Assembly (NCBI RefSeq): GCF_900142845.1
Contig: NZ_FSRU01000001.1
Coordinates: 1,488,001-1,552,000, forward strand
Source: Paraburkholderia phenazinium
Lineage (GTDB): Bacteria; Pseudomonadota; Gammaproteobacteria; Burkholderiales; Burkholderiaceae
Reading direction: 5' to 3'
Length of the DNA stretch: 64,000 nt
The translations under genes and the position numbers were made by a program. The notes below the pieces were generated by a model that was not told where the DNA came from, made no database searches, and saw only the letters and a list, made by a program, of their open reading frames with translations. Shown here in pieces: positions 54,559 to 61,440 of the stretch. How positions within the stretch are numbered: the first letter of the stretch is position 1; every line of letters starts with the position of its first letter.

Positions 54559-55138
54559 GGTTGCAAAGAGAAAGGGGACGGCGTTTCATTTGCCCTGGGT
54601 GCGTCGCCGTAGGCAGTCGGGACGAATCATACCGTCGGCATAGGGGGCGGACAACCCGCCATGGAGCGCATTGCACGGCCCGCCGGCCGACCGGATTGAG
54701 CCGACAATTAAAATCATGCAACGTCGAAACCATTTCAAGCGCATTTGAAAGCCGTTATTCATGATTGGCCGGATGTCTAAAAGGCCATTATGCAAAAACG
54801 ATAGATTGCGCCCGTCTATTCAGTAAAATCCTCCGGTTTAATTCGCTTTTGACGGCATTGGGTATTGCCGCCGTCGGCGAACCCGGCGCTGGGCGCGCAA
54901 AGCGCCCGCGCCAGCGGGGCTAGCCCGTCTTCCGCACAATAAAAGCCCGGCACTACGCCAATAACGCGTTCATTGTTAAAAACGCCCGGCGCGCACGATT
55001 CGCTTGAGTTTCGAATCCTGACGCGTTAAATTCGCCTCGCACGCCGCCGGCGCTGCCAAACACATCCTGACGAAATACATACAGTTGCATGCCGTCGACC
55101 GGGTTCAGGGATCCGGCGCCGGTCATTTAAGGATCGCG
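54559..55138. other. Long intergenic region before the SPFH operon
   Basis: These 580 bp have no gene. From 54700 to 54850 the sequence is AT-rich compared with the window. Two GC hairpins lie at 54850-54876 (GACGGC/GCCGTC) and 54891-54907 (GGGCGC-GCAAA-GCGCCC, wrapped by further pairing). A promoter for the SPFH operon is proposed at 55004-55032. The length and composition suggest complex control or a small RNA. Confidence 0.55.
55004..55032 (+). promoter_or_regulatory. Putative sigma-70 promoter of the SPFH/P-type ATPase operon
   Basis: TTGAGT (55004-55009) and TTAAAT (55026-55031) are 16 bp apart; TAAATT at 55027-55032 gives 17 bp. It lies about 105 bp upstream of the first SPFH gene start. 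Confidence 0.5.
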
Positions 55139-57061
55139 ATGTTGCCTCAGATGCAAAGCGACGAAGAAGCAACGCACCGCTATCCGGTTTCCGCCACGCG
55201 GATCGCCTCAGTCAGTCTGGTGCTGGCTCTGGTACTCGGCGCACTGCCGTTGATCAAGGGTGGCTGGTTCGATATCCGCTGGTGTGCCGCCCTGTCGAGC
55301 GCATGGCTCAACGTGTTTACCGTCGCGCTGGCGGCCGGGCTCGCCCATACCGGTGGGCGGCGCGTGTCCACGACATCCCATCAAACGCATGAACGGCATG
55401 AACCGCCTCAATCGTTAGGCCTGCGTGTCTGGCAGAGCGCATGGTGGCGCGCGTGCGGCGCAGCGTCGCTTGCTGCGCTGCGCGGCATCCGCTGGCAGCC
55501 CTGGGCCGTGCTGGTATGTGCGGCGTTGTCGGTGGCGGTGGCCTCGCTCGCCTGGCGGGCGCCGGTCCAGTTTGCGCTCGCTGCCGTGCTGCGGCCGCCC
55601 GGCGCCGCGCTGATCGCGGGTGTGGCGGCCTTCGCACTGGCATTCGGCACGCTGGTCGCCGAGCTGTTCTTTTCGATGCATGCCGAGCGCGGCCGCGCGT
55701 GGGCGTCGCTCGCCAACGTGCTGCGCGCGGCGCTGCTGAGCGCGCTGGTCGCGGCGGTCTGCGCCGTGTTGCTCGCCTATGCCGATGTCTCGCCCGTGTG
55801 GCCGGTACATGCACTGAGTGCCTTCGGCGCCGCGATCGCGCTCGAATTCGCCTTGCGCGCCGTGTTGTCGTGGTTCGCGCCGCCGCACATGCGCAGCGGC
55901 GACGCCAGCGTGCCCGATAGCCTCGTCGCGAGCCTGCTGCGTTTGCGTCCCTCGCCGCTCGCCCGCTTTAGCGCGCAACTGCGTCATCGGTACGGCATCG
56001 ATCTGCGCCAGAACTGGGTCTTGCAAAGCGTGGTACGTCTGCTGCCGGCCGCGCTCGGCACGGTGGTCGTCTGTGCCTGGCTGCTGACGGGCGTCGTGAT
56101 GCTGGGACCCGAGCAGCGCGCCGTGTACGAACGGTTCGGCGCGCCGGTCGCAGTGTGGCAGCCGGGTCTGCATGTGGCGCTGCCCTGGCCGTTCGGCAAG
56201 GCGCGTGCAATCGACAATGGCGCGGTCCATCAACTGGTCGTGTCCGGCTCGCCCGAAGAGAGCGTGGCCGCGTCGCCGCTGGTGCCCGCCGACGCCCAGA
56301 CGCCCGAGCAGTTGAACCGCCTGTGGGACGTCGTGCATCAGGGCGAGACGAGCCAGGTGATTGCGGGCGGCAGCGGCGACCGGCAGAACTTCCAGATTGT
56401 CAGCGCGGACGTGCGGCTCGATTACCGCATCGGTCTATCGGATGCCGCCGCGCGGGCCTCGCTGTATCGCACCGACGACGTGCCGGCAACCGTGCGCGCG
56501 ATTGCCAATCGCGAAGTGGTGCGCTACCTCGCGTCGCACACGCTGGACTCGCTGCTCGAAACGCGCCAGACCGTGATGGCCGACACCCTCCGGCACGCGG
56601 TGCAGGCGCAACTCGACCGCCTGTCGAGCGGCATCGACGTGGTGGCCGTGGTGATCGAAAGCGTGCATCCGCCGGCGGGGGCGTCGGGGGCATGGCATAG
56701 CGTGCAGGCCGCGCAGATTCGCGCCGAGGCGAGTGTGGCGGAGGCACGCGGACTCGCCGCGCAGTCGTTGGGCGACGCGCGGCAGCAGGCCGAGACCGCG
56801 GTCGCGCAAGCCGACGCGCAAGCGGCCGACATCACGTCGGCCGCCCAGGTCCAGCAAACCAGTTTCAGCGCCGACATGATCGCGGCCCAGGCGGGTGGTC
56901 CGGCGTTTGTGCTCGAGTACTACCTGCACAACCTGCAGAAGGGTTTGCAGAATGCGCACGTGACGGTGATCGACGACCGGCTCGTGGAAGGGAACCGCGC
57001 CACCATCGATCTGCGCTCGTACGGCGCGGGCGATGCAGCGGGCGCGCGGCGGATTTATTGA
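55139..57061 (+). CDS. SPFH/HflK-like protein with polytopic N-terminal membrane domain
   Basis: This is a 640-residue protein. Residues 20-322 contain about seven hydrophobic helices (e.g. 24-40, 122-138, 157-178, 198-216, 302-322). The SPFH/band-7 domain follows (LGPEQRAVYERFGAPVAVWQPGLHVALPWPFGK in parts, then VSADVRLDYRIG), with a coiled, Ala/Gln-rich stretch at 560-610 and FVLEYYLHNLQKGLQNA near the end, as in HflK. Classical HflK has a single N-terminal helix, so the added membrane domain is unusual. ATG 55139 has AAGGATCG upstream. It is first of four clustered genes ending in a P1B-ATPase. Confidence 0.8.
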   Translation: MLPQMQSDEEATHRYPVSATRIASVSLVLALVLGALPLIKGGWFDIRWCAALSSAWLNVFTVALAAGLAHTGGRRVSTTSHQTHERHEPPQSLGLRVWQSAWWRACGAASLAALRGIRWQPWAVLVCAALSVAVASLAWRAPVQFALAAVLRPPGAALIAGVAAFALAFGTLVAELFFSMHAERGRAWASLANVLRAALLSALVAAVCAVLLAYADVSPVWPVHALSAFGAAIALEFALRAVLSWFAPPHMRSGDASVPDSLVASLLRLRPSPLARFSAQLRHRYGIDLRQNWVLQSVVRLLPAALGTVVVCAWLLTGVVMLGPEQRAVYERFGAPVAVWQPGLHVALPWPFGKARAIDNGAVHQLVVSGSPEESVAASPLVPADAQTPEQLNRLWDVVHQGETSQVIAGGSGDRQNFQIVSADVRLDYRIGLSDAAARASLYRTDDVPATVRAIANREVVRYLASHTLDSLLETRQTVMADTLRHAVQAQLDRLSSGIDVVAVVIESVHPPAGASGAWHSVQAAQIRAEASVAEARGLAAQSLGDARQQAETAVAQADAQAADITSAAQVQQTSFSADMIAAQAGGPAFVLEYYLHNLQKGLQNAHVTVIDDRLVEGNRATIDLRSYGAGDAAGARRIY

Positions 57062-57119
57062 TGAGACGGCATCGCTGCACACGCGGTACGGCATTGGACA
57101 GACGGCTTCGGGGGATAGG

Positions 57120-58199
57120 GTGAGTTTGAATCATTCGCACGCACACGCTCATGGGCAGGGTCACGCGCATCACCACCACCACGGCGGCGCGGCAGCAGGC
57201 GGCCCTGGTTTCTACTGGCGGGTAGCGCTGGCGGCGCTGTGCGTCGCGATCGCGTTCGCGGTGGCGAGCTTTATCCAGGTGCAGGCCGGCCAGGCGACGG
57301 TGGTGACGCGCTTCGGCGAACCGGTACGGGTACTGCTCGAGCCGGGCCTCGCGTGGCGGCTGCCGGCGCCGATCGAGGCGGCCGTGCCGGTGGACCTGCG
57401 TCTGCATACGACGTCCAGCGGTCTGCAGGACGTCGGCACGCGCGACGGCCTGCGCATCATCGTGCAGGCCTACGTGGCCTGGCGCGTGCCGGCCAATGCC
57501 AACGACGTCGGACGTTTCGTGCGCGCGGTGCGCAACGAGCCGGACGAAGCGGCGCGGCAGATTCGCTCGCTGCTCGGCTCGGCGTTGCAGACCACTTCCG
57601 CCGACTTCGATCTGGCCTCGCTGGTGAACACGGACCCGAGCCAGGTGCGCATCGGCGCGTTCGAGGACGAACTGCGCCGCCAGGTGGACTCGCAGCTTTA
57701 TCAGGCGTATGGCGTGCATGTCGTGCAGGTGGGCATCGAACATCTGACGCTGCCGGCGGTGACGCTCTCGGCCACGGTCGAACGGATGCGCGCCGAGCGC
57801 GAGACGGTGGCCGCGCAACGCACCGCGGACGGCAAGCGGCAAGCCGCGCAGATCCGCTCGGACGCGGATCGCGACGCGCGCATCGCGGTGGCCGATGCCA
57901 ACGTCAAGGCTGCGCAGATCGAAGCGCAATCGCGCCAGGATGCCGCGGCGATCTACGGCAAGAGCTACGCGGGCAATCCGCATCTCTACACGATGCTGCG
58001 TTCGCTCGACACGCTGAACACGGTGGTCAACACCAATACCAACCTGATCCTGCGCACGGATGCGGCGCCGTTCAACGTGCTGGTGCAAGGGCCTGCGGGA
58101 CTCGGCGTGACGCAGGCGCCAGCGCAGAGTCAGACCCAGACTCAGGCCGCAGGCGCAACGCAGCCGACGGCGGCGAAAAAGGCCAGGCACATCCCATGA
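57120..58199 (+). CDS. SPFH/HflC-like protein with His-rich N-terminus
   Basis: This is a 359-residue protein from GTG 57120; an ATG at 57033 would overlap the previous gene and add 29 residues. Residues 4-21 are almost entirely His/Ala/Gly (NHSHAHAHGQGHAHHHHH), a probable metal-binding segment on the cytoplasmic side. One membrane helix (ALAALCVAIAFAVASFIQV) follows, then the band-7 domain (QATVVTRFGEPVRVLLEPGLAWRLPAP, in parts) and the GKSYAGNPHLYTMLRSLDTL region typical of HflC. Its stop overlaps the next ATG. HflK/HflC-type proteins assemble into ring or cage oligomers that organise membrane proteins such as FtsH. Confidence 0.8.
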   Translation: MSLNHSHAHAHGQGHAHHHHHGGAAAGGPGFYWRVALAALCVAIAFAVASFIQVQAGQATVVTRFGEPVRVLLEPGLAWRLPAPIEAAVPVDLRLHTTSSGLQDVGTRDGLRIIVQAYVAWRVPANANDVGRFVRAVRNEPDEAARQIRSLLGSALQTTSADFDLASLVNTDPSQVRIGAFEDELRRQVDSQLYQAYGVHVVQVGIEHLTLPAVTLSATVERMRAERETVAAQRTADGKRQAAQIRSDADRDARIAVADANVKAAQIEAQSRQDAAAIYGKSYAGNPHLYTMLRSLDTLNTVVNTNTNLILRTDAAPFNVLVQGPAGLGVTQAPAQSQTQTQAAGATQPTAAKKARHIP

Positions 58200-59338
58200 G
58201 CACGGCCGTGGAAACGCCAACGCCCTCGCTCGGACCCGGCGCGCAGGCTGTGCGCCTCGCGTTCTGGTTCGTGGTGGCGATCGCGCTGCTGGCGGCGGGC
58301 GTGTGGGCTACCTCGAACATCCGCCGCATCCCGGCGGACAGCCGGGCCGTGGTGATGCGCTTCGGCGCGTTCGTGCGCACCCAGGATGCTGGCTTGCTGG
58401 TGGCGTGGCCGCAGCCGTTCGAAACGGTGCTGCTGATTCCCGGCAGCGCACGCGTGCTGGAGGAGCGCATCAGCTCGCTCGACCGAGATCCGCGCGCGCG
58501 TGCCGCCGATCCGGCCGCCACCACCGAATCCAGCCAGACTCAGCAGTTGCCCTTGGGCGATGTGAGTTCATGGGGTTTCCAGTCCGACGGCTCGACGCCC
58601 GGGAACGCCGGCCCGACGCTGTCCGACGCACTGGCCGGTTCCGGCTACACGCTGACCGGCGACAACGGCGTCGTGCAGTTGAGCGCGACGCTGTACTACC
58701 GGGTGGTCGATCCGTATTCGTATGTACTGCAGAAGGAGCGTCTCGACTCGGCGCTGCAGCGTGTGGTGGCAGCGGCGGTGGTCGAGGTGACCGCGTCGCG
58801 CGATCTCGATTCGATTCTGGTGGCGCGTCCCGAACTGCTGTCGACCGATCAGCAGATGGCCGTCAAGCGCGAGCAGTTGCGCGGCGAGATGGCGCAGGCG
58901 GTGCAACGTCATCTGAATGCGCTGGCGGCAGCGCACGCGGGCCTCGGGATCGACGTCGCGCGCATGGACGTGCAGGCGCAGTTCCCGGCGGCGGCCGTCG
59001 ATGCGTTCAACTCGGTGCTGACGTCGCTGCAAACCGCCGACCGCAATATCGCCGACGCGCGGACCGAGGCCGAGAACATCCGCCAGGGCGCGCAGCAGTC
59101 CGCCGACCAGATCCTGCAAAGCGCCCAGGCAAGCGCCACCGAGCGCGTCGCGACCGCGCAGGCCGAAACCACCACGATCTTGCAACTCGAAACGCCGCTC
59201 GACGCGAATAGCGATCCCGGTCTGCTCGCGCGTGCCTATCGCGACCGGATCCAGCAGATCCTCTCGAAGGCGGGGCGCGTGACGACGATCGATCCGCACG
59301 ACGCATCGAGCTTGGTGCTGCCTGGGAAAATCCAATGA
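58196..59338 (+). CDS. Third SPFH/HflK-like protein
   Basis: This is a 380-residue protein with one N-terminal helix (AFWFVVAIALLAAGVWA, about residues 22-38) and a band-7 domain beginning IPADSRAVVMRFGAFVRTQDAGLLVAWPQPFETV (in parts). A disordered Ser/Asp/Gln-rich stretch lies near 95-135, followed by the second half of SPFH (VVQLSATLYYRVVDPYSYVLQ), a long Ala/Gln coiled-coil (FNSVLTSLQTADRNIADARTEAENIRQGAQQSADQI, in parts) and LARAYRDRIQQILSKAGRV. Its ATG overlaps the stop of the HflC-like gene and its stop overlaps the ATPase start (both ATGA), so all are translationally coupled. Confidence 0.8.
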   Translation: MSTAVETPTPSLGPGAQAVRLAFWFVVAIALLAAGVWATSNIRRIPADSRAVVMRFGAFVRTQDAGLLVAWPQPFETVLLIPGSARVLEERISSLDRDPRARAADPAATTESSQTQQLPLGDVSSWGFQSDGSTPGNAGPTLSDALAGSGYTLTGDNGVVQLSATLYYRVVDPYSYVLQKERLDSALQRVVAAAVVEVTASRDLDSILVARPELLSTDQQMAVKREQLRGEMAQAVQRHLNALAAAHAGLGIDVARMDVQAQFPAAAVDAFNSVLTSLQTADRNIADARTEAENIRQGAQQSADQILQSAQASATERVATAQAETTTILQLETPLDANSDPGLLARAYRDRIQQILSKAGRVTTIDPHDASSLVLPGKIQ

Positions 59339-61440
59339 GCACGCACATCGAACCGGTTGAGCGGGCAGAGCCCGGTGGCGCGGTCGATCCGGCCCATGCC
59401 GCAGCGCATGGGGCTCATGGCGCTCATGATGCGCATGACGCCGGACATGAACATGAGCACGACCACGGCGCCGGATCGGACACCCACCATTCACACGACG
59501 ACGGACCGACCATCGCGCTGTCCGCCACGGAACGGCGCATCGTCACGCGGCAGATTGCGCTCGCCTTGCTGGCGGGCGGCCTGCTGGCGTTGTCGCTCGC
59601 ATGGCGCTATTTCGCGCCAGGCGGCGCGCAACTTGCCGAAGTGCTCGCCGGACTCGCGTCGCTACTGGTGGCGGGGCCGGTCTTCGCCGGCGCGTGGCAC
59701 AGCCTGAAGTCGCCCAGCCTGCATGGCGTGACCGACCGCCTGATTGCGCTCGCGATGCTGGCGGCGTGGGCGATCGGCGACATGACGACGGCGGCGTTGC
59801 TGCCCATCGTGATGACCTTCGGACATGCGCTCGAAGAGCGCAGCGTGCTCGGCTCGCAGGAGGCGATTCGCGCGCTCGGCCGGCTGACCTCGGGCAACGT
59901 GCGGCGCGTGAAGGCCGACGGCACGCTCGAGGACGTGCCATATGAGTCAATTCGCGCCGGCGACACGGTCGAGGTGGCGCCCGGTTCGCGCATTCCCGCG
60001 GATGGCGTGGTGCGTCGCGGCCGCTCCAGCGTCGACAACGGACCGATCACCGGCGAGTCGTTGCCGCTCGACGTCGCTGAGGGCATCGCCGTGTTCGGCG
60101 GTGCGATGAATCTCGACGGCCCGCTGCGCATTGAGGTCACGCATGCGGGCGAGCAGTCGACGCTCGGCAAGATCATCGAGTTGCTGCAGCGCGCCGAGCA
60201 GGTCAAGCCGCCGATCACCCAGGTGCTCGAACGCTACATGGGCGCTTATCTGGCGCTGGTGCTGCTGATTGCGGCGATTGTGTGGTTCGCGTCGGCGAAC
60301 TCATCGGCGATGCTGGCCGTGATCGTCGCCGCGTGTCCGTGCGCGCTGGTGCTCGCCGCGCCTTCCACGGCGATTGCCGGGATTGCGGTCGGCGCGCGCC
60401 ACGGTGTGCTGTTTAGAAACGCGGCGTTCCTCGACCGGATTGCCGAGATCGACTCGCTCGTGATCGACAAGACCGGCACGCTCACGCACGGCGAACTGCG
60501 CGTCGCCGACGTGTTCACGCAACCGGGCGTAGCGCAAGCCGAAGCCGTTGCACTGGCGGCGCGGCTGGGGGCGGGCAGTGTGCATCCGGTGAGCCGGGCG
60601 CTGACGCGCCACGCTGCGGCAGCCGCGGGAGAGGAGGCAGCCCCGTTCGAACGCACGCGCGAACTGCGCGGTCTTGGGGTCGTCGCGGAAACGCCGGAAG
60701 GCACCGCGGTACTCGGGCGCGCCGAGTTGTTGCGCGAGCACGTCGCCGCGTTGCAAGCCGCGCCGGCCTCGATCGACGGTCCTTGCGTGGGCCTCGCGCT
60801 CAACGGTCAACTGCTGGCGTGGTTCGGTTTTGCGGACGCCTTGCGTGCCGAAGCAGCCGGTGCGCTTGCCGAACTGCGCGAGCTCGGTCTCGTGCGGCAG
60901 ACCCTGCTGACAGGCGATCGCGACGCGGTAGCGCAAAAAGTGGCCGCCGAAGTCGGCATCGATACGGTCGTCTCCCAGGCGCTGCCGCACGACAAGCTCG
61001 ACTACGTGATGCACGAACTCGAAGCCGGACATCATCCGCTGGTGGTCGGCGACGGCCTGAACGATGTGCTGGCCATCAAGGCGGGCGCGACCAGTATCGC
61101 GATGGGTGAACGGGGCATCGACATTGCGGTGGCGTCCGCGGATATCGTGCTGCTCGGCGACGACCTGCGGCGCATTCCGACCTGCATCCGCCTCGGCCGA
61201 CGCTGCCGCCGTACCGCGACCATCAACGCGGCGATCGGCCTGTTGTGGACCGTCGAGATCATCGCGCTGGCCGCGCTCGGTTTGCTGGGGGCCGTGTGGG
61301 TGGCGATCCTGCACAACGTCGGCACGTTCATCGTGATCGCGAACGCGGGACGGCTGCTGCGCATCGACGAGGATGCTGCATCGCAACCACCCAGAAGAGG
61401 TTTGGATGCCGATCCGCCGCGACCCATGACGCCGCATTGA
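59335..61440 (+). CDS. P1B-type heavy-metal ATPase with His-rich N-terminus, no HMA domain
   Basis: This is a 701-residue transition-metal pump. Residues 20-56 are His-rich (HGAHGAHDAHDAGHEHEHDH) and replace the CxxC HMA domain common in this family. Motifs are complete: TGES in the actuator domain, C334-P-C336 in the transport helix, phosphorylation aspartate D378 in DKTGTLTHGE, a P-domain GDGLNDV, and a histidine-proline near HPVSRAL in the N-domain. The last helix reads H660-NVGTFIVIANAGRLL, not the D-x-G of Zn/Cd/Pb pumps, so metal specificity is uncertain. It closes the SPFH operon through an ATGA overlap. Confidence 0.9.
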   Translation: MSTHIEPVERAEPGGAVDPAHAAAHGAHGAHDAHDAGHEHEHDHGAGSDTHHSHDDGPTIALSATERRIVTRQIALALLAGGLLALSLAWRYFAPGGAQLAEVLAGLASLLVAGPVFAGAWHSLKSPSLHGVTDRLIALAMLAAWAIGDMTTAALLPIVMTFGHALEERSVLGSQEAIRALGRLTSGNVRRVKADGTLEDVPYESIRAGDTVEVAPGSRIPADGVVRRGRSSVDNGPITGESLPLDVAEGIAVFGGAMNLDGPLRIEVTHAGEQSTLGKIIELLQRAEQVKPPITQVLERYMGAYLALVLLIAAIVWFASANSSAMLAVIVAACPCALVLAAPSTAIAGIAVGARHGVLFRNAAFLDRIAEIDSLVIDKTGTLTHGELRVADVFTQPGVAQAEAVALAARLGAGSVHPVSRALTRHAAAAAGEEAAPFERTRELRGLGVVAETPEGTAVLGRAELLREHVAALQAAPASIDGPCVGLALNGQLLAWFGFADALRAEAAGALAELRELGLVRQTLLTGDRDAVAQKVAAEVGIDTVVSQALPHDKLDYVMHELEAGHHPLVVGDGLNDVLAIKAGATSIAMGERGIDIAVASADIVLLGDDLRRIPTCIRLGRRCRRTATINAAIGLLWTVEIIALAALGLLGAVWVAILHNVGTFIVIANAGRLLRIDEDAASQPPRRGLDADPPRPMTPH

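Follow-up and report, generated by a model that had tools for sequence, protein, structure and literature searches.

SPFH proteins form membrane cages or corrals around clients that are mostly unknown; for the HflK/C type, FtsH is the one studied best. Here we describe a four-gene operon (g1 to g4) of Paraburkholderia phenazinium in which three SPFH genes precede the gene for a P1B-type metal ATPase; it lies in a 64,000-nucleotide stretch of contig NZ_FSRU01000001.1 (positions 1,488,001 to 1,552,000), referred to below as the window. Its described counterpart is the PA2434-PA2439 cluster of Pseudomonas aeruginosa. A P. aeruginosa znuA mutant induces PA2434, PA2435 (HmtA), and the HflC-/HflK-family genes PA2437-PA2439, with PA2435 and PA2437-PA2439 increased 5.6- to 14.4-fold, and the Zur site given for the PA2434-PA2439 genes is weak (E 0.11) (Pederick et al. 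2015; PMC4542158). Zur binds the promoter of PA2439, the first gene, in vitro in an electrophoretic mobility shift assay (EMSA) (Ducret et al. 2021; PMC8531726), and a review lists HmtA as a reported importer (PMC10393844). Zinc depletion raised HmtA and the SPFH proteins, not all of them significantly, in a 2025 proteomics preprint (PMC11761036), and the three SPFH genes were upregulated in an N-acetylcysteine study (PMC9431628); both suggest a connection to FtsH. In PA14 the trio has been named PaFlo5-PaFlo7 and deleted (Garcia-Maldonado et al. 2026; PMC13086221); the discussion of that paper describes less biofilm and attenuated virulence in Galleria, and its main text mentions neither the ATPase nor HmtA.

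A scaffold and a pump are also paired in mycobacteria, where PacL1, a scaffold with a metal-binding tail, stabilizes the P1B ATPase CtpC (PMC9374683). Our literature search, which left out most subscription papers, found no paper proposing that SPFH proteins serve a pump. The initial annotation of this DNA knew of no characterized system with the composition of g1 to g4; the composition is in fact already known from PA2434-PA2439, within a zinc starvation response (PMC4542158, PMC8531726, PMC11761036). We conclude that the P. phenazinium operon is probably the Burkholderiaceae form of the Pseudomonas HmtA-SPFH cluster, a module for acquiring zinc, and perhaps also copper, under scarcity. From our analysis g1, g2, and g3 may well be a dedicated scaffold for the g4 pump. 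New here are the findings that trio and pump strictly co-occur in three proteobacterial classes, that their histidine-rich tails are conserved, and that one of the SPFH proteins is polytopic.

Conserved linkage of an SPFH trio and a P-type ATPase

The four plus-strand genes fill positions 55139 to 61440 of the window, as read from the sequence and its open reading frame translations (Table 1). Both the earlier description of four same-strand genes, the last three joined by ATGA overlaps, and that of three band-7/SPFH genes with a CPC-type pump lacking an HMA domain were borne out, the former by the sequence and the latter by Pfam and NCBIfam. The two ATGA junctions lie at 58196-58199 (g2/g3) and 59335-59338 (g3/g4), and 58 nt separate g1 from g2. 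An ATG at 57033 is a possible alternative start for g2; we preferred the GTG start because the proteins of relatives open with MSLFH.

We searched for the genes separately in several samples. Among 150 Burkholderiaceae genomes, the profiles of g4 (E ≤ 1e-200), g3 (E ≤ 1e-15), and g1 (E ≤ 1e-25) each matched nine genomes; these were the same nine, with the genes adjacent and in the same order. Likewise, profiles of g4 (E ≤ 1e-120) and g2 (E ≤ 1e-40) each matched the same 13 of 25 genomes of the genus inferred to be Pseudomonas. Class-wide draws returned the P. phenazinium genome and no other, both for g3 (1/369 at E ≤ 1e-20) and for g4 (1/369 at E ≤ 1e-145). Across 72,556 PLSDB plasmid records, g3 matched 10 and g1 matched 13, the extra three g1 matches being weak (27% identity). 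For g4, the best 60 of 2299 matching records contained 10 at 53 to 77% identity, the next highest standing at 35.9%; within those best 60, the records with at least 53% identity were the same 10 that carry g3 and g1. These counts indicate a block of genes that is patchy in occurrence yet keeps together.

Scanning the contigs of named genomes with g2 as the anchor found at least 333 relatives, the best 80 of which were kept (51 titled Pseudomonas, 25 Enterobacterales, 4 others). Together with five plasmid loci they make up 85 homologous loci, and with eight further Burkholderiaceae operons and the window itself, 94 operons. All 85 loci have g1-g2-g3-g4 in this order, with the g1 match partial in one of them (L071), and a 4-nt start/stop overlap (ATGA, GTGA, or TTGA) is available at the g2/g3 junction in 70/85 and at the g3/g4 junction in 67/85. 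Chance clustering of the four genes is ruled out by this invariant order and the overlap architecture. When the scan was instead anchored on the ATPase, 398 Pseudomonadota genomes gave 11 matches, and all 10 besides our own had the trio upstream; this set is not independent of the g2-anchored one, since at least four contigs are common to both. Rhizobium, Burkholderia, Paraburkholderia, Pseudomonas, and several Enterobacterales are among the hosts. Strict adjacency and overlap architecture span the Alpha-, Beta-, and Gammaproteobacteria. We looked in these samples for homologous operons that mostly lack the ATPase and found no such pattern. The suggestion that the SPFH genes and the pump form one unit is supported: in the samples each trio gene occurred with the pump, and each pump with those trio genes that were sought alongside it.

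Some details of the layout vary. Of 91 operons, an earliest-start rule has g2 begin with TTG in 55, with GTG in 21, and with ATG in 15, which suggests weak or coupled translation or else a mere limit of the rule. A small gene occupies the roughly 0.65 kb between g3 and g4 in three of the 85 loci (L034, L046, and L059) and also in L130; its product of about 150 to 165 amino acids (P. delhiensis, P. citronellolis, and Pseudomonas sp. 30_B) looks secreted by eye. The whole operon also resides on plasmids typed as conjugative, pYD-K10_1 of Klebsiella aerogenes (L011), where a Tn3-family transposase lies nearby, and pMSMB2035 of Burkholderia ubonensis (L013), with insertion sequence elements as neighbors. 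Such carriage fits the patchy spread of the operon.

The pump, its SPFH partners, and their tails

The pump g4 has the Pfam domains E1-E2_ATPase and Hydrolase and no HMA domain at E 0.001; an N-terminal HMA domain is usual, not universal, in P1B-2 exporters. It exceeds the NCBIfam cut-offs of TIGR01512 (439.1 versus 313.5) and TIGR01525 (476.5 versus 346.25). A reading of g4 as a copper exporter was rejected, as its TIGR01511 score of 320.8 is below the cut-off of 397. The CPC motif and a second motif in the last transmembrane (TM) helix, LHN[VLMF][GS]T, are kept in the ATPase of 94/94 operons. A Lys in TM7 and an Asp in TM8 are functional residues of SsZntA. In g4, Asn661 aligns with this Asp (structure 4umv), His660 aligns with the His of HEGST in 7qbz, and the position aligned with the SsZntA Lys is variable across the g4 family.

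In a tree of 24 rows, 14 HmtA-like sequences stood apart from 10 other P-type ATPases, separated from them by a branch that measures 3.2 changes per column and has a support of 100/100; several of the 10 are very long-branched, and the two of them from the P. phenazinium genome that score under the TIGR01525 cut-off may not be P1B ATPases. That genome (8.53 Mb in three contigs) has four other TIGR01525 matches, two of them over the cut-off.

All three partners match Pfam Band_7 (cut-off 23.6 bits), at 55.2 bits for g1, 108.7 for g2, and 54.0 for g3, and this is their only Pfam match at E 0.001, the DUF1490 scaffold domain being absent. Their nearest named NCBIfam models are HflK for g1 and g3 (TIGR01933, 60.2 and 101.5 bits, cut-off 159.4) and HflC for g2 (TIGR01932, 106.8 bits, cut-off 134.4), and all three score under these cut-offs. 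The g2 profile matches the HflC structure 7vhp at 4.6e-27. There are eight Band_7 matches genome-wide, of which g1, g2, and g3 are three, and a canonical HflK/HflC pair on contig C2 scores over both of the cut-offs that g1 to g3 fail.

In the product of the first gene, g1, residues ~1-317 form a polytopic membrane domain, the SPFH domain covers ~320-510, and a long helix follows toward the C terminus (515-604). Its AlphaFold2 model, which is weak (mean pLDDT 61.7; built on 17 sequences, all of them matches of the window's own g1 protein), has an SPFH part that matches HflK and stomatin structures. In the same weak model the predicted fold of residues ~9-250 (55163-55888) aligns best with the YiiP/ZnT zinc transporters. 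Sequence comparisons did not follow: six sequences gave no Cation_efflux match at E 10, a search of the PDB with its profile gave no match at E 10, and hhalign against seven CDF sequences returned probabilities of 0.2 and 0.3%. CDF metal sites consist of HxxxD-type pairs, from which the conserved residues of the g1 domain (E175, R176, R196, E236, and R240) differ, and we kept the CDF/ZnT likeness, a structural match without any sequence support, as a lead only.

Histidine clusters had been noted at the N termini of two of the four proteins, and we confirmed them in g2 and g4. By script, 81/94 operons have at least five His ahead of the first TM helix of g2, a count that depends on putative g2 starts, often TTG or GTG, assigned by rule. 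A tail in either protein (at least five His in g2 or at least four in g4 before the first TM helix) was found in 90/94: in g2 alone in 64, in both in 17, and in g4 alone in 9. Three of the four remaining operons (L018, L040, and L096) were script misses whose tails carry 5, 8, and 11 His, respectively, which brings the total to 93/94; the sole operon without a proper tail, L019, has merely CCHGHMH. Loci with an untailed g2 (L011 and L016 to L025) have a short g4 tail of the type SHQCSHGHIH. Across the 94 operons it is thus the presence of a tail that is conserved, and not its sequence. The initial annotation had these tails handing metal to the pump, which presupposes export, whereas the reported direction for HmtA is import (PMC10393844); with an importer, cytoplasmic tails would receive metal instead.

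Table 1. Features of the g1 to g4 operon, in positions of the window
Feature	Position	Strand	Description
Putative sigma-70-type promoter	55004-55032	+	TTGAGT-N17-TAAATT; conserved in Burkholderiaceae operons
g1	55139-57061	+	640 aa; HflK-like SPFH protein
g2	57120-58199	+	359 aa; GTG start; HflC-like SPFH protein
g2 His-rich N-terminal tail	57123-57188	+	SLNHSHAHAHGQGHAHHHHHGG; read from sequence
g3	58196-59338	+	380 aa; HflK-like SPFH protein; ATGA overlaps with g2 and g4
g4	59335-61440	+	701 aa; HmtA-like P1B-type ATPase; no HMA domain
g4 His-rich N-terminal tail	59398-59505	+	From alignment; short or missing in many relatives
CPC motif	60334-60342	+	Residues 334-336 of g4
His660-Asn661	61312-61317	+	Motif LHN[VLMF][GS]T in last TM helix of g4; SsZntA (4umv) has Ala-Asp

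Judged by eye from translations, positions 1 to 53700 of the window hold catabolic and regulatory genes of no obvious metal function, among them one resembling hydroxyproline epimerase (797-1744), transporters, and LysR-type regulators.

Zinc-related signals around the operons

For regulatory sites we used TGTTATANNATAACA, which we take to be the Zur-type consensus. A site with at most three mismatches to it lies upstream of g1 in 71/83 loci outside the Burkholderiaceae (the 85 loci minus L013 and L014), compared with 1/83 stretches inside the operons and 36/830 mononucleotide shuffles. Among the ATPase-anchored loci, 9/10 have such a site upstream of g1. Within the Burkholderiaceae, L096, L101, and L103 carry the palindrome ATGATATAACATATCAT upstream of g1 (L103 at two mismatches); in L096 and L103 a TonB-dependent receptor gene is divergent from the operon, and in L101 genes for ExbB and ExbD lie upstream. 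The pattern TTGAGT-N17-TACATT/TAAATT, a putative promoter picked after the upstream sequences had been viewed and without a chance control, is found upstream of g1 in 10/11 Burkholderiaceae operons, the window included.

Gene neighborhoods add to this. In P. sprentiae (L014) a zinc ABC transporter, itself next to zigA, is encoded 3.5 kb upstream of the operon, and a PCu(A)C gene is also upstream; neither zigA nor the zinc ABC genes nor g1 had a TGTTATANNATAACA site with at most four mismatches nearby. When flanking genes were clustered, the neighbors proved mostly lineage specific, the exception of interest being a ZigA-type cluster at 8/85 loci. Seven Pseudomonas loci (L038, L047, L065, L067, L082, L089, and L092) have a GTPase gene of this cluster 3.8 to 5.5 kb downstream of g4, P. 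sprentiae has one upstream of its operon, and the single member tested, that of L067, is ZigA by NCBIfam (678.5 versus a cut-off of 600).

The P. phenazinium genome itself has one exact TGTTATANNATAACA site, at C1:1241995-1242009, which is distant from the operon and precedes the likely start of a TonB-dependent receptor gene by about 90 bp. At up to two mismatches, sites in this genome were no commoner than those of a reversed control (8 and 7 versus 6 and 12). By eye, the exact site also adjoins a permease-like gene, and L102 has a similar gene downstream of its SPFH-pump operon. A zinc link is well supported for the operon family, and the window's own copy may also be under zinc control.

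Weighing the explanations

Our preferred account starts from the pump. As a non-canonical P1B ATPase, g4 would most likely move Zn2+ from the periplasm to the cytoplasm, a direction drawn from the HmtA overexpression literature. We infer that g1, g2, and g3, as distant HflK/HflC paralogues, would together build a mixed ring or corral of SPFH proteins with g4 inside, in the manner of the HflK/C cage; the polytopic membrane domain of g1 may anchor this assembly, and the presumably cytoplasmic, His-rich tails of g2 and/or g4 may catch or buffer metal. A fuller version, in which a three-component cage with g1 as a possibly CDF/ZnT-like anchor without a metal site, an inward pump, and zinc-catching tails form a plasmid-mobile import compartment, is one that we put forward tentatively and with some doubt. 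Because the trio is tied to one particular pump in every sample, it names a candidate client of an SPFH cage and makes the question of whether such cages serve transporters directly testable. The scaffold account, if true, would offer a possible role for PaFlo5-PaFlo7 and for the HflK/HflC genes whose part in the zinc response of P. aeruginosa is so far unexplained.

Several observations weigh against this account. Conserved linkage shows a functional association of trio and pump and not a physical one. No Zur-like box is evident upstream of the window operon, where the best score lies within the range of shuffles, and the ATGATATAACATATCAT palindrome was not found in 8/11 Burkholderiaceae operons, the window among them. 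The grouping of g4 with trio-linked Pseudomonas ATPases comes from a 24-row tree that did not include PA2435 itself. In P. aeruginosa, hmtA mRNA was unchanged on zinc addition (PMC8531726), and the review excepts hmtA from the Zur-bound promoters, contrary to the PA2439 EMSA; it also notes that HmtA import rests on overexpression and wants confirmation (PMC10393844). The PA14 trio deletion had no growth defect, and that paper contains no chelator terms and a single mention of zinc, which concerns FtsH (PMC13086221). The main text of a Burkholderia cenocepacia zinc starvation transcriptome paper names no HflK, HflC, or P-type ATPase.

Three other explanations share parts of this evidence. The trio could be a form of HflK/C made for zinc starvation: bound to FtsH, which is a zinc metalloprotease, it would shield or adjust this protease while zinc is scarce, and the pump would be just a co-regulated zinc importer. 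HflK and HflC are indeed the nearest named families of g1 to g3, and two papers on P. aeruginosa suggest a connection with FtsH (PMC11761036, PMC9431628), but all three proteins fall under the equivalog cut-offs, the same genome already has a canonical HflK/C pair, and in our samples no trio gene occurred without the pump, nor the pump without the trio genes searched. We consider this explanation unlikely, though it is the strongest of the three. The idea that the trio organizes the membrane generally during zinc stress, with co-regulation but no direct tie to the pump or FtsH, would agree with the slight phenotypes of the PA14 deletion (PMC13086221); strict adjacency and overlaps across three proteobacterial classes exceed what co-regulation needs, and we regard it as very improbable.

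Export deserves a separate word. Here g4 would be an exporter of Zn, Cd, or Cu of the P1B-2 type, with an SPFH scaffold and His tails that feed it metal as proposed for PacL1-CtpC. The pump does pass the Cd/Zn subfamily model TIGR01512, and the metal-binding tails would be cytoplasmic if topology follows that of HflC. PacL1-CtpC also provides a published scaffold-pump platform (PMC9374683). Against export stand the Zur-like boxes and zinc uptake genes near the operons, the induction of the P. aeruginosa counterpart by zinc depletion (PMC4542158, PMC11761036), and the last-helix Asp of SsZntA, which is Asn in g4, along with the aligned Lys, which is not kept. We judge an export platform improbable, somewhat less so than co-regulation without a direct tie, and we retain zinc import with a dedicated SPFH scaffold as the preferred account.

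Set beside known systems, the operon shares features with four of them. With HflK/HflC, g1 to g3 have in common the SPFH domain and fold, g2 being closest to HflC and g1 and g3 closest to HflK; they differ in falling below the equivalog cut-offs, in having a P1B ATPase gene as their constant partner, and in the polytopic membrane domain of g1, where HflK and HflC have one TM helix. With the ZntA/CadA-type P1B-2 Zn/Cd exporters, g4 shares the P1B core, the CPC motif, and a score above the TIGR01512 cut-off; unlike them it is without an HMA domain, carries LHN[VLMF][GS]T where their last helix has its Asp, and belongs to a separate long-branched group. What the operon shares with PacL1-CtpC is a P1B ATPase encoded together with a scaffold-like membrane protein that has a metal-binding tail; PacL1, however, belongs to the DUF1490 proteins, has a single TM helix, and is not an SPFH protein, flotillin is not needed there, and the direction is export (PMC9374683). 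The counterpart in P. aeruginosa is the PA2439-PA2434 cluster with PaFlo5-PaFlo7. Zur binds the PA2439 promoter (PMC8531726), whereas the window has no evident Zur box, and the inserted g3-g4 gene of the P. delhiensis/P. citronellolis type stands at the expected place of PA2436, whereas the window has no inserted gene. The match of g1 to g4 with PA2435-PA2439 is one of gene order and annotation rather than sequence, and in both the three SPFH genes precede the gene for a P-type ATPase, on the same strand and in the same order. By sequence, the same arrangement of an SPFH trio and then an ATPase is present in the 51 loci titled Pseudomonas among the best 80 of at least 333 relatives.

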